DNA of 64,000 nt from Bacteroidales bacterium. Lineage in GTDB: Bacteria > Bacteroidota > Bacteroidia > Bacteroidales > Salinivirgaceae. The first letter of the stretch is position 1. Every line of letters starts with the position of its first letter. A program made the translations under genes and the position numbers. Below, in pieces: positions 1-31,857 of the stretch. The stretch covers positions 1 through 64,000 of the forward strand of contig JAAYQU010000021.1 of the NCBI GenBank assembly GCA_012519055.1. Direction: 5' to 3'. Below the pieces are notes generated by a model. The model did no database searches. It saw only the letters and a list, made by a program, of their open reading frames with translations, and was not told where the DNA came from.

Positions 1-106
1 AGGTGGTTATTGCATCGGGGTTCCACCTCTTCCCATCTCGAACAGAGAAGTTAAGCCCGATAGCGCCGATGGTACTGCGATAGTGGGAGAGTAGGTCGCC
101 GCCGAT
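1..106 (+). rRNA. rrf: 5S ribosomal RNA (5' end probably a few bases outside the window)
   Basis: The sequence carries the conserved 5S core, including CGAACAGAGAAGTTAAGCCC and the GGTACTGCGATAGTGGGAGAGTAGGTC-type 3' half (written here only as a class). The 5' bases GGTGG at 2-6 can pair with CCGCC at 99-103 to form helix I. Bacteroidota 5S genes usually begin one to three bases before AGGTGG, so the 5' end is probably clipped by the window edge. A strong terminator follows directly, so this is the last gene of an rRNA operon whose 16S and 23S genes would lie to the left. No tRNA follows it. Confidence 0.95.
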
Positions 107-110
107 TTTT

Positions 111-21825: not shown

Positions 21826-23253
21826 TTAATGTCCAGTTTCCGTTTGAAATACTACTTTAGAAATATTTTGTCCATTGCGGTAATAGAGTGTGTCAGAGTC
21901 TGATACTGTCTTTACATATTCTCGTGCTTCTCTGCCGTCATTAATGATAATCCTAACAACCTTTTTCCCATCCCATTCGTGAAACTCTTGTGTTAAGCCA
22001 GTATCATATGTTTTTGCCAAATTGGCAATGAATTCTTTGGTTCTACTTTCAGGGGAGAATGAGAACTGTTTAAATAGTTCCTTTTTTCTATTTATCTTAT
22101 CAATCTGAATTTTAACATATTGGTCTGATTGGTTGATAGTTAGAGCCTCATTATAATATTGTTCGGCTTTGTCGTAGTCAGAGTTTTGAAAACATCTGTC
22201 GCCGTTTTCAATTAGCTTTCTGTATTGTTCGCTATCACTCCGATCAACAGATATATTCAGTTGTGTACCGAGAAACTTTATCTGTTTAAAAACGTACTCA
22301 TCGTTTGGATTTAACTTAGATGCTAACTCGTAGTGATACAAAGAGTTAATATAGTCGCGATTACTTATATATTTATCGGCAAGAGAGACATGATGATTGT
22401 ATTGTAATTTTATATACATCGAGTTGTCGAACCTGCTGTTTAAAGTGTCTGCCAGGTTAGCTTTATACCATGCGTAATCGTTTTCAGGATACATAGAAGC
22501 TGATTCAGTATAGAATACCGATGCCTTTGAAAAATCATGCCCTCGCATACAGGAATCGCCTAATTGTTGTAATTCAATAAAGGCTTTGTATTTATTACTC
22601 TTTCTTAATAACTGTGTCTCAAGAGAGTTTATTTGCTCTGTGGGATACAAAACATAGGGATCATATACTCGTGCCATCAAATAATGGTCGATTGCCTTTA
22701 CAAAATCGCCACTCTTTTTTCCGTTATCTGCAAGAGATATATGTTTGTTGTACTGTGCGTATCGTTCCTTTTTTACGTATGAAATAAGATTATTGCTTAA
22801 GTTTTTAAATTTTCCGGAATAGTTGTAATCAAAATCAAATTCGCCAAAATTTGGTGAGTAGTAAATTTTGGCAACTGGCAGTTGAAAGACTGAGAAGTCT
22901 GTATTTGGGATTTCAGGAAAAATCTCCATATTAAACCAATATACCCACTCCCTCTCCTCATTTTCACGAACATTGGTGTCTATTGTCAATCTTTTGGTAA
23001 CATAACCGTAGGCGGCAAATATCAGTTGATATTCACGATTTAACTCTAACTCAAAACTAAATCGTCCGGCTAAATCTGTTTCAGCAACCATTAACAGCGA
23101 GCCATAAGAGTACAGCTGCACCATGCTACCCGATATAGGCTTCCAGCCATCGCGCAAAAATCCGCTAATCTGTAAGCCTCCATTTTGAGCTGATACATAG
23201 CTAAATAGATTGATGAAAATAACAAGTAAAAGTATCTTGGAAAAGTTTCTCAT
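21826..23253 (-). CDS. Exported TPR protein with N-terminal carboxypeptidase-regulatory-like domain
   Basis: The 475-residue protein has a signal peptide (about 1-22) and a CarboxypepD_reg-like beta domain (about 26-105) with the phrase TDLAGRFSFELELNREYQLIF. At least three tetratricopeptide-like helical pairs follow between about 165 and 385 (for example DKAEQYYNEALTINQSDQYV). The C-terminal 75 residues (HEWDGKKVVRIIINDGRE) are a small beta module found in envelope proteins of the phylum. No enzyme motif is seen. A scaffold role is inferred. Confidence 0.7.
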   Translation of the reverse strand: MRNFSKILLLVIFINLFSYVSAQNGGLQISGFLRDGWKPISGSMVQLYSYGSLLMVAETDLAGRFSFELELNREYQLIFAAYGYVTKRLTIDTNVRENEEREWVYWFNMEIFPEIPNTDFSVFQLPVAKIYYSPNFGEFDFDYNYSGKFKNLSNNLISYVKKERYAQYNKHISLADNGKKSGDFVKAIDHYLMARVYDPYVLYPTEQINSLETQLLRKSNKYKAFIELQQLGDSCMRGHDFSKASVFYTESASMYPENDYAWYKANLADTLNSRFDNSMYIKLQYNHHVSLADKYISNRDYINSLYHYELASKLNPNDEYVFKQIKFLGTQLNISVDRSDSEQYRKLIENGDRCFQNSDYDKAEQYYNEALTINQSDQYVKIQIDKINRKKELFKQFSFSPESRTKEFIANLAKTYDTGLTQEFHEWDGKKVVRIIINDGREAREYVKTVSDSDTLYYRNGQNISKVVFQTETGH

Positions 23254-28693: not shown

Positions 28694-29230
28694 ATGACAT
28701 GCAAAATTCCTTTGAAGAACAGTGATTATTATGCAGTTGTTGACGCAAGAGTTTATGAATATCTTGTGAATGATCCGCATTTGGCAAAAATCAAATTTTT
28801 AGATAATCTTCGTCGTCACAGTAAAGGGTACGCTTTTTTTCAAAAAAATTGGAAACAGTCTGATGGTACATATCGTAATGAGACCATATATCTGCAAAAA
28901 GTGATAGCTGAAAAATTTATTGCTCTACCAGATAAGGTTAATCGTTACTGGGTGCGTTTTAAAGATGGAAATCCAAATAATTGTAAATTAGATAACTTAG
29001 AATGGAGCTCTTTGTCGAACGTTGTTAGAAACACGTCAAAAACAGACAATCAATTTGGGTACAGAGGTGTAGTTAAAAGCGGAAACAAGTATCAGGCTAT
29101 TATTTATGTTAACCGCAAAGCACTGAACTTAGGTACATTTTCAACACCTGAGGAGGCTGCCGAAGCTTATAATAAAAAATCAATTGAATTGTTCGGAGTT
29201 ACACGTAGTCTGAATAAAATAAGAAAATAA
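28694..29230 (+). CDS. AP2-domain DNA-binding protein with a degenerate HNH-like region
   Basis: The 178-residue protein has a C-terminal AP2 domain (about 121-169: FGYRGVVKSGNKYQAII ... LGTFSTPEEAAEAYNKKS). Before it (65-106) is the scaffold of an HNH_3 homing-endonuclease domain: IYLQKVIAEKFIALPD, then WVRFKDGNPNNCKLDNLEW. In active relatives these segments read roughly YLHRLVAEAFI and VNHKDGN. Here Gln and Phe stand where the histidines are expected, so nuclease activity is unlikely. It is probably a DNA-binding protein descended from a mobile endonuclease. It stands alone next to a MITE copy. Confidence 0.7.
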   Translation: MTCKIPLKNSDYYAVVDARVYEYLVNDPHLAKIKFLDNLRRHSKGYAFFQKNWKQSDGTYRNETIYLQKVIAEKFIALPDKVNRYWVRFKDGNPNNCKLDNLEWSSLSNVVRNTSKTDNQFGYRGVVKSGNKYQAIIYVNRKALNLGTFSTPEEAAEAYNKKSIELFGVTRSLNKIRK

Positions 29231-29352: not shown

Positions 29353-30774
29353 ATGGATATAAAATCAGAACTTCAAATACAATTTGCATCACACACAATT
29401 CTTGGTAAAGAAAAAAAGTATAATACCGATATTTGTGAAAGCTTTGAGCTTGTTGGCGGAATGGGTATCGTCCTTTGTGACGGTGTTGATGGTATTAACA
29501 ATGAGGGAGGAGCATTAGCTGCCAAACTTGCTTTAGAGGGTGTGAAGCGACATTTTAAGCGGAATCCCATAAAAAATCCTATAAAAGCATTGCAGGGAGC
29601 TATGATGTTAGCTAACTTTTCGGTCTATGACCATGCAATGAAAAACGAACGTTTTTTACAAATGGGAGTGAATATCCTTTTAGTAATTGTTGTTGACAAC
29701 TTAATTTATTACGCATCTACAGGAAACAATGCTCTTGTTCTTCAACGTGAAGGTGTTCTTTATCAATTGGTTAAACCAAATGTTGATGATCAGTTGTCAG
29801 TTGTTCTTTTAGGTCGCGAAAAATATACACGCTTTTCTATTTGCAAAAATCCTATTCAAGCGATTAATAATGATGTTATCCTTTGTGCATCAGACGGTGT
29901 GTTTACCGTATTTTCGGATCAACAAATAGCTGAACTTTTATATCAAGACGATATTTCTATCGATTTGCTTAGTTATCAGATTATCTTCAAGTTAGAGGAA
30001 CAACAAACATCCGATAATGCTACTGTAGCACTTGCAAGATTGACAGATAAAAATGATCTGCCTCCTGAAGGTAAATCCGTAAAGTCAGAAGTAGTTGATT
30101 TGAATGATATGCCAGAGATTAATCATTTCAACTCAGAGTTTGATCACACAGATGATGATACAGACAATCAAAATCACAGCGAAGAAACAAAAGAGGACGT
30201 TAAACAAGTTAAACAAGATAAGCCCCTATCAATCATCAAAAACAAAAGGGTAATAACTGTTTTTGCTTTAGTATTGTTAGCGTCTATAATATTGATTTTA
30301 TCATTAGATTATTTTCTAAACAGTGGCGATAAAGATGACGCGTTGGTTAAAAAACGAACTGAAACAACTGAGAAACAGGTGCAAAAGCAGAAACAAGAGC
30401 CAGAAACAAAAGAGATAAAAAAACAGAAAGAGAAGGAAATTAAGGAGGAAACACCTGCAAAACAGACAGAACATCAGTTTTATGAACATAAAGTTCAAAA
30501 AGGAGAAAACCTGTTTCGTATAAGTAAAAGGTATAATGTTACATTTGCGCAAATTAAAGAGGCAAACAATTTAACGTCAGAAACTCTACGATACGACCAA
30601 AAAATAAAGATACCTGTTAAGGCAATTCATACGGTTAGCTCTGGTGAATCAGTAGGCACGATAGCACAACGCTATAAATCAAGTACTCAAGATATATTGA
30701 AAGCTAATGAAATAACTAATGAGAACCAACTTAAAGTTGGTGCCAAAATCATTATCCCTTTATCTAATAATTAG
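29353..30774 (+). CDS. Membrane PP2C-family phosphatase with two extracytoplasmic LysM domains
   Basis: The 473-residue protein has an N-terminal PP2C/SpoIIE-like fold (about 5-232). Its metal-binding aspartates appear as D26 (YNTDI), D43 (LCDGVDG), D181 (CASDGVF) and D221 (SDNATVAL). An acidic linker (about 235-290), a single membrane helix (300-320) and a Lys/Glu-rich spacer follow. Two LysM domains occupy about 378-421 and 426-470 (YEHKVQKGENLFRISKRYN and HTVSSGESVGTIAQRYK). The predicted topology puts the phosphatase in the cytoplasm and the LysM domains in the periplasm, where they would contact peptidoglycan. It is followed after 9 bases by a membrane-Nudix gene. No Ser/Thr kinase gene is in the window. 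Confidence 0.8.
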   Translation: MDIKSELQIQFASHTILGKEKKYNTDICESFELVGGMGIVLCDGVDGINNEGGALAAKLALEGVKRHFKRNPIKNPIKALQGAMMLANFSVYDHAMKNERFLQMGVNILLVIVVDNLIYYASTGNNALVLQREGVLYQLVKPNVDDQLSVVLLGREKYTRFSICKNPIQAINNDVILCASDGVFTVFSDQQIAELLYQDDISIDLLSYQIIFKLEEQQTSDNATVALARLTDKNDLPPEGKSVKSEVVDLNDMPEINHFNSEFDHTDDDTDNQNHSEETKEDVKQVKQDKPLSIIKNKRVITVFALVLLASIILILSLDYFLNSGDKDDALVKKRTETTEKQVQKQKQEPETKEIKKQKEKEIKEETPAKQTEHQFYEHKVQKGENLFRISKRYNVTFAQIKEANNLTSETLRYDQKIKIPVKAIHTVSSGESVGTIAQRYKSSTQDILKANEITNENQLKVGAKIIIPLSNN

Positions 30775-30783
30775 CTTTTTGTA

Positions 30784-31857
30784 ATGAAAAAACAATCATC
30801 TTCCTTTACGAGCCAACTTTTTTGGGGGCTTATTCCTTTAGTTGTTTTTATTCTCGCGGAAAGTCTGTTTGAGACTACTACATCGGCAATAATATCGGTA
30901 TCGTGCGGGTTAATTATTTTTGCTGTTCAGTATATTAGAGAGAGGTTTTTAGACAAATTCTTAATTATTGATATAATTGTCTTGTCAATTTTAGGAGCCG
31001 CCACAGCTCTCTTTAAAAGTGAACTTTTCTTAAAATTAAAACCAGGATTTACACAGACACTTTTTTTAATCTATTTGGGCATCATTGTATTTGGAAGCCA
31101 CGATGTATTCAAGCAGTTTACAGAACGATTCTCTTTTGGTAGATTTAAACTTAGTGATGACAATATCAGCTTATTAAGAAAAAATATGAAGATTATGCTG
31201 TATGTTTTGATAGCACATACAGCCTTAGTTTTTTATGCGGCTTTTCACTGGAGTATGACTGTTTGCGTATTTATTTCGGGAGTTGGTTTTTTCCTTGCAG
31301 CAATAATCGCGGTTTTAGCTCCTTTTGTAATAAAATGGATAAAATCTTGGGGTGTTGAGTATGTTCCAATTCTCGATGAAAAAGGGAACGTTATCGGTAA
31401 AGCTACGCGTGAATATGTCCACACAGGCTCTTTTGCACTACACCCGGTTGTTCATGTGCAAATTCTTAATCCATCGGGGCAAATATTTCTTCAAAAACGT
31501 TCGGAGAATAAAAAAACACAACCCAGCAAATGGGATTCTGCAGTAGGAGGTCATGTAAAGTGGAAAGAGACCATAGAACAAGCCTTGGAACGTGAGATGT
31601 TTGAAGAGACAAAACTTAAACCTTCGAACATAAGTTTGAGGGCGCAATATATTTGGAAAGACCATGAGGAGTCGGAAATGGTCTTTTCGTTTGTTCAAGT
31701 AACTGAGCAAGAACCGAAGGTTAACCCTAAAGAGGCTTCTCAAGGACGATGGTGGACAGTGTCGCAAATTGAAGAGTCACCACAAGAGATTTTTACTTCA
31801 AATTTTTTGCACGAACTGCCAGAAATTAAAGCTATCATTAGGAAAATCAGGAAATAA
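30784..31857 (+). CDS. Fusion of a YciB-like membrane domain with a Nudix hydrolase
   Basis: The 357-residue protein has five or so membrane helices in residues 1-185. Phrases such as LIPLVVFILAE and ALFKSELFLKLKP resemble the septation-associated protein YciB/IspZ. The C-terminal 160 residues are a Nudix domain of the isopentenyl-isomerase-like (YfcD) type (FLQKRSENKKTQPSKWD, and a Nudix box spanning 256-278 with G256, E262, R270-E271 and E274-E275). The box has Lys where the consensus Gly stands near its end. Substrate unknown; a lipid-linked or nucleotide pyrophosphate is an inference. It is in an apparent operon with the PP2C-LysM gene. Confidence 0.75.
   Translation: MKKQSSSFTSQLFWGLIPLVVFILAESLFETTTSAIISVSCGLIIFAVQYIRERFLDKFLIIDIIVLSILGAATALFKSELFLKLKPGFTQTLFLIYLGIIVFGSHDVFKQFTERFSFGRFKLSDDNISLLRKNMKIMLYVLIAHTALVFYAAFHWSMTVCVFISGVGFFLAAIIAVLAPFVIKWIKSWGVEYVPILDEKGNVIGKATREYVHTGSFALHPVVHVQILNPSGQIFLQKRSENKKTQPSKWDSAVGGHVKWKETIEQALEREMFEETKLKPSNISLRAQYIWKDHEESEMVFSFVQVTEQEPKVNPKEASQGRWWTVSQIEESPQEIFTSNFLHELPEIKAIIRKIRK

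Follow-up and report, generated by a model that had tools for sequence, protein, structure and literature searches.

A membrane-anchored PP2C-LysM protein with an incomplete catalytic set in a Bacteroidales bacterium: a possible cell-wall receptor orphaned from its kinase

The locus and its surroundings

The window, i.e., the whole stretch of DNA that was analysed, comprises 64,000 nucleotides of contig JAAYQU010000021.1 (assembly GCA_012519055.1) from a Bacteroidales bacterium of the family Salinivirgaceae. An intact open reading frame on its forward strand encodes a protein of 473 amino acids that combines a PP2C-type domain, a transmembrane helix and a LysM part. The next gene encodes a NUDIX protein and starts 9 bases after the PP2C-LysM stop codon. 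The features of the two genes are as follows.

29353-30774, forward strand: intact frame of the PP2C-TM-LysM protein, 473 aa
29353-30048, forward strand: PP2C-type domain, residues ~1-232 (NF033484, 4e-17; family profile against PP2Cs of the PDB)
30250-30321, forward strand: single transmembrane helix, residues ~300-323 (hydropathy peak; helix 295-324 in the model)
30322-30477, forward strand: low-complexity stalk rich in K, E and Q, predicted periplasmic (sequence; poorly conserved)
30478-30621, forward strand: LysM domain 1, residues ~376-423 (PF01476 at 379-421; model)
30625-30765, forward strand: LysM domain 2, residues ~425-471 (second PF01476 stretch)
30784-31857, forward strand: fusion of an IspA-like membrane domain with a NUDIX hydrolase (PF00293, 4.5e-21; PF04279, 8.9e-7)

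Full-length homologues of the PP2C-TM-LysM protein were found in G000-G005 and G023, where G000 is the window's own genome. An origin of the frame by chance or artefact was rejected on the strength of these orthologues in seven genomes. The protein was also rejected as a component of a defence system, having no PADLOC match.

A protein of 178 amino acids (28694-29230, forward strand) has an HNH_3-like stretch and, by eye, an AP2-like C-terminus, and its gene is strongly conserved beside a SurA-like PPIase gene in G000-G004. Since the HNH histidines appear to be lost (RYWVRF), it may be a domesticated DNA-binding protein derived from a homing endonuclease. The gene of a 475-aa TPR protein (21826-23253, reverse strand) lies apart from the PP2C-LysM gene in the window and is its immediate upstream neighbour in G001 and G002 of the same genus; thus, the gene order varies between members of the genus. 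The window starts with a 5S ribosomal RNA gene (2-107, forward strand), and tRNA genes were not found within it.

The NUDIX gene lies immediately downstream of the PP2C-LysM gene in nine genomes of two families, which makes it a putative operon partner. The spacing is -35 to +9 bases in G000-G005 and G023 and 86-95 bases in G232 and G372; the NUDIX gene does not adjoin the PP2C-LysM gene in G136, G094, G195 and G282. The Nudix box of the window's NUDIX protein is intact, and the G023 version is devoid of the IspA-like part. The protein resembles isopentenyl-diphosphate isomerase, an enzyme whose active-site cysteine lies in the CGHP motif. All seven aligned NUDIX homologues read GGH instead of CGH. 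With the catalytic cysteine missing and a score of 69.1 bits against a curated cut-off of 127, identity with the isomerase was rejected.

Domain architecture and topology

Sequence homology over the PP2C domain places the protein in the PP2C/PPM fold family. The NCBIfam Stp1/IreP model NF033484 matches this domain with an E-value of 4e-17 and 62.5 bits, short of the 230 bits of the equivalog cut-off. A profile of the close family matches solved bacterial PP2Cs (5f1m, 2j82, 2pk0, 2cm1, 1txo) at an E-value of 4.5e-26. The Pfam cut-offs for PP2C are missed by the window protein (PF00481, 12.7 vs 20.3 bits; PF13672, no match) due to sequence divergence. The LysM part is recognized by PF01476 in two stretches above the Pfam cut-off (E-value 1.2e-26, 92.8 bits) and also matches LysM proteins of the PDB. 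The sequence-only reading, which had described a PP2C domain, one membrane helix and two LysM domains, is thereby borne out by NF033484, hydropathy and PF01476, respectively.

The PP2C domain is likely cytoplasmic and the LysM part likely outside. This N-in/C-out topology is suggested by the single strong hydrophobic helix, by the flanking charges (K/R in the KNKR stretch N-terminal to the helix, mostly acidic residues after it) and by the lack of a signal peptide visible by eye. An AlphaFold model of the full protein had a mean pLDDT of 46.7. Its LysM part is confident (pLDDT mostly 80-90), and its PP2C part is poor because the input contained only two sequences.

Two kinds of relatives in Bacteroidales

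The sequence-only reading had suggested looking for the same domain order in other genomes, and the search did find it, in two kinds within Bacteroidales. An order-wide search with a PP2C profile covered 393 genomes, 85 of which had a match at 1e-10; 49 loci were examined in detail. A separate contig scan yielded one locus, apparently on the same contig as that of G002. The domain order is not unique to the window, many Bacteroidales carrying it. A sample of 395 genomes from across the phylum was also searched; there, the best PP2C relatives from outside Bacteroidales had no LysM, which makes the architecture Bacteroidales-specific within this sampling.

The first kind, seen in G021, G388, G258, G060, G328, G331, G089, G171 and G067, has a PP2C-TM-LysM gene that is followed directly by a Ser/Thr kinase gene of ~580 codons (one is cut by a contig end). 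One or two LysM copies were detected in these PP2C proteins, some of them weak. Without exception, they are canonical at the metal positions and have a flap of 29 residues; four of them carry DD in the RDHS motif. The five partner kinases inspected are single-pass proteins. The three partner kinases scanned with Pfam each have a weak SH3_3 match below the cut-off, in the portion predicted to be periplasmic:

L114, 3413-5152, reverse strand: kinase beside a canonical PP2C-LysM gene, weak SH3_3
L103, 2842-4578, reverse strand: kinase beside a canonical PP2C-LysM gene, weak SH3_3
L078, 3797-5533, forward strand: kinase beside a canonical PP2C-LysM gene, weak SH3_3

Genes upstream of the pair encode an FHA domain in the genomes tested (G021, G258, G388). 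Further kinase-linked PP2Cs (G109, G291, G353, G015, G132 and more) have the helix, and LysM was not detected in them by profile.

The second kind has a clear LysM pair and no kinase neighbour. It comprises 13 proteins (G000-G005, G023, G232, G372, G136, G094, G195, G282) that form one branch with support of 98/99. Two canonical proteins with LysM, those of G156 and G323, have no adjacent kinase gene and fall outside this branch. A separate, degenerate PP2C-TM-LysM protein of G031 also lies outside it, on a very long branch. At this G031 locus (L043, 6683-10821, reverse strand), two other genes directly follow that of the degenerate protein. One encodes a small protein that looks secreted, the other a membrane protein that resembles a phosphatase of the SpoIIE type with a tail similar to RsbW and is possibly a replacement output.

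Kinases and serine phosphorylation in the window's genome

No kinase gene adjoins the PP2C-LysM gene of the window. A profile search found no Hanks kinase above the Pfam cut-off in the window's genome, which is estimated to be 100% complete. One candidate for a hidden Hanks kinase (G000:C13:24459) was rejected: it scored 15.9 bits and appeared APH-like, with a RapZ-like C-terminus by eye. Hanks kinases were likewise not found by profile search in G004, G005, G094, G232 and G282 of the 13-protein branch. The other members (G001, G002, G003, G023, G136, G195, G372) have one or two elsewhere in the genome.

The window's genome also encodes two RsbW-like Ser kinase domains and sixteen SpoIIE-type phosphatases. 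Kinases and phosphatases of these two types are usually each other's partners. Because of the two RsbW-like domains, phospho-serine proteins probably exist in this bacterium.

Catalytic residues of the window protein

Residues were compared across 49 aligned PP2C domains. The counts exclude eight of these, which are divergent or degenerate, and refer to 13 domains of the window's clade and 28 others. The positions concerned, all on the forward strand and assigned from the alignment, are listed below.

29413-29415, forward strand: Lys21, replacing the conserved phosphate-contact Arg
29428-29430, forward strand: Asp26 of motif 1, kept
29479-29481, forward strand: Asp43 (DG motif, M1/M2 ligand), kept; Ser in G001, Asn in G094 and G195, Gly in G282
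29725-29727, forward strand: Asn125, replacing the GDSR aspartate (M3 ligand)
29776-29805, forward strand: shortened flap (~9 vs 29 residues), RDHS motif lost
29893-29895, forward strand: Asp181 (SDG motif, M1 ligand), kept; Asn in G002, Thr in G001
30013-30015, forward strand: Asp221 (DN motif, M1 ligand), kept; Glu in G001

The metal-binding aspartates had been described as intact from the sequence alone. This holds for Asp26 and for the M1/M2 ligands Asp43, Asp181 and Asp221, but the GDSR motif has Asn125 in place of its M3 aspartate. Lys21 stands five residues before Asp26, at a position that we take to be Arg33 of PPM1A. The RDHS motif reads KPNV. With Asn125, Lys21 and a 9-residue flap, the window protein departs from the canonical three-metal bacterial PP2Cs (PstP, SaSTP and tPphA type). 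If PPM pseudophosphatases are defined by loss of M1/M2 ligands, the window protein is not among them; G001 is one, and G002, G094, G195 and G282 are so in part.

The GDSR aspartate position corresponds to the M3 ligand D146 of PPM1A (PMC5390078) and to the Motif 5 Asp of bacterial PP2C groups (PMC12088040). Mutants in the M3 aspartate, PPM1A D146E and PPM1B D151E, were reported to be inactive, and M3 of PPM1B was reported to be needed for catalysis and dispensable for substrate binding (PMC13142519, preprint). The minimum for PPM activity has been reported as M1 and M2 (PMC12002173). The need for M3 in bacterial PP2Cs is disputed, some authors holding it non-essential (PMC12088040). The residue losses are therefore not a proof of inactivity.

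Erosion and selection in the 13-protein branch

The M3 aspartate is replaced by Asn or Thr in 12 of the 13 clade proteins and is Asp in all 28 outgroup PP2Cs; the phosphate-contact Arg is replaced in 12/13 and kept in 27/28. These counts come from related sequences of one clade and are not independent. G023, a member of the branch, still has GDSR. Five clade proteins have lost further M1/M2 ligands. Two of them belong to the window's genus: G001, where Asp43, Asp181 and Asp221 became Ser, Thr and Glu, and G002, where Asp181 became Asn. Asp43 is Asn in G094 and G195 and Gly in G282. To judge from the tree, this additional ligand loss is repeated in at least four places.

The reading frames of the eroded members are open. 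Within the genus, the PP2C domain is 50-65% identical vs 36-57% for the LysM part, and is thus about as conserved as the latter or more so. Invariant non-catalytic positions persist across the clade. For the pair G094/G195, both with an altered DG motif, dN/dS is ~0.09-0.15, which points to purifying selection; the estimate is restricted to this pair, since synonymous sites are saturated in the same-genus pairs. The open frames, the level of identity and the low dN/dS argue that the PP2C domain is retained in those species despite an incomplete catalytic set.

Interpretation

It was proposed from the sequence alone that the protein is a wall-sensing phosphatase. The architecture is real and conserved in many Bacteroidales, which makes it reasonable to read the family as wall-responsive PP2C receptors, most of all the kinase-adjacent branch. 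The word phosphatase is doubtful for the window protein, since it has no kinase neighbour and its genome no detected Hanks kinase, since the M3 aspartate, the Arg and the full flap are gone, and since its two same-genus orthologues have lost further essential aspartates. With the kinase neighbour lost and the active site eroding piecewise, the protein may be a wall sensor that signals without dephosphorylation. We give an about even chance to its being a kinase-orphaned, wall-anchored PP2C receptor that is weak or inactive as a phosphatase and signals by binding. Slightly less probable is the extension to the whole clade, i.e., that these proteins are wall-anchored pseudophosphatase receptors in which the LysM-PP2C protein, having lost its partner kinase, became a transmembrane wall sensor limited to binding, which possibly recognizes phosphorylated partners but does not hydrolyse them, and which works together with the NUDIX/IspA-like membrane protein.

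In such a receptor, the two predicted periplasmic LysM domains would bind glycan strands of peptidoglycan, and the single helix would cross the inner membrane and signal inward whether or not they are bound. The ancestor of the PP2C output module would be an active phosphatase whose gene once adjoined that of a transmembrane Ser/Thr kinase. The erosion of the module may have begun with the M3 aspartate, the phosphate-contact Arg and, in part, the flap, the M1/M2 ligands following later. The window protein would represent an intermediate step, possibly still able to bind two metals and a phospho-group, with poor or no hydrolysis of phosphoproteins. The state of the wall would then most likely be signalled by binding a partner, phosphorylated or not. 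The product of the next gene is the first candidate for a member of the same pathway.

Several observations run against this binding-receptor reading. The M1 and M2 ligand set of the window protein is complete, G023 keeps GDSR, RsbW-like kinases are present, and the losses come from one clade. The main rival is that the protein is an active, wall-regulated PP2C with a two-metal centre, whose substrates are phosphorylated by non-Hanks kinases (e.g., RsbW-like) or by kinases that escaped detection. This rival is tentative, and it keeps a real share of probability beside the even chance of the binding receptor because the M1 and M2 ligands are kept, unlike in two same-genus orthologues. It agrees with the fully canonical state of the kinase-adjacent relatives and with the view that bacterial PP2Cs can do without M3 (PMC12088040). 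It fits less well with the loss of M3 aspartate, Arg and flap, with the lack of a detected Hanks kinase, and with the retention of same-genus orthologues devoid of essential aspartates; moreover, the two RsbW-like domains would be expected to pair with the genome's 16 SpoIIE-type phosphatases.

A mainly structural role, with the LysM domains holding the inner membrane, or else the NUDIX/IspA-like partner, to the wall and the PP2C remnant drifting and playing no part in signalling, would explain why the catalytic residues are lost stepwise while LysM is retained throughout. It is unlikely, as a drifting domain would hardly be conserved as well as the LysM part or better within the genus, come under purifying selection in G094/G195 or hold invariant non-catalytic positions across the clade. 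Least probable is a changed chemistry, in which the PP2C domain would serve a NUDIX-linked metal-dependent step or have a small phosphorylated compound, not proteins, as its substrate. The conserved NUDIX neighbour with its intact Nudix box speaks for it, as does the shorter flap, which could open the site; but several clade members are devoid of the metal ligands required for a two-metal site, and G136, G094, G195 and G282 do not have the NUDIX neighbour.

Ser/Thr wall sensing is known mostly from the PASTA kinases of Gram-positive bacteria. The kinase-coupled relatives look like a Gram-negative counterpart, with a LysM phosphatase and a transmembrane kinase encoded side by side, and the kinase and the canonical PP2C-LysM protein are possibly a wall-sensing pair in Bacteroidales. 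The window's branch is a natural gradation of PP2C domains, active-looking at one end and clearly dead at the other, in which the receptor plan is kept. It thereby offers a chance to follow a bacterial signalling enzyme turning into a binding protein.

Comparison with known systems

Transmembrane PP2Cs, PASTA-PP2Cs and eukaryotic PPM pseudophosphatases are known already. No bacterial PP2C-LysM protein and no bacterial PPM pseudophosphatase were found described among the literature matches listed, subscription papers being mostly outside the search. The early remark that there is no well-studied example needs qualifying: PstP, a transmembrane PP2C with an extracellular part, is well studied, and PASTA-bearing PP2Cs have been reported, mainly from Chloroflexota (PMC12088040).

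PstP of Mycobacterium tuberculosis, encoded in an operon with PknA/PknB, is the nearest characterised transmembrane PP2C. Like the window protein, it has a cytoplasmic PP2C domain, one helix and an extracytoplasmic C-terminal part; it is tied to wall synthesis (PMC12088040), and the kinase-coupled relatives found here share with it a gene position beside a Ser/Thr kinase gene. Unlike the window protein, PstP has the third metal and its cognate kinases, and its outer part is putatively PASTA, LysM not being described. The window protein, in turn, has neither a kinase partner nor the M3 aspartate and the phosphate-contact Arg, and its flap is shortened. The Stp1/IreP-type PP2Cs (SaSTP 2pk0, tPphA 2j82, 5f1m) are homologous over the whole PP2C fold; in contrast to the window protein, those solved are phosphatase domains without LysM and with a canonical GDSR. 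The PASTA kinases PknB and PrkC follow the same plan of a cytoplasmic signalling enzyme, one helix and outer peptidoglycan-binding repeats, with a kinase where the window protein has PP2C and PASTA where it has LysM. Finally, the PPM pseudophosphatases PHLPP2 and TAB1 have retained the PP2C fold and lost metal ligands (PMC12002173), but they are eukaryotic proteins and, unlike the window protein, are not membrane receptors with wall-binding domains.
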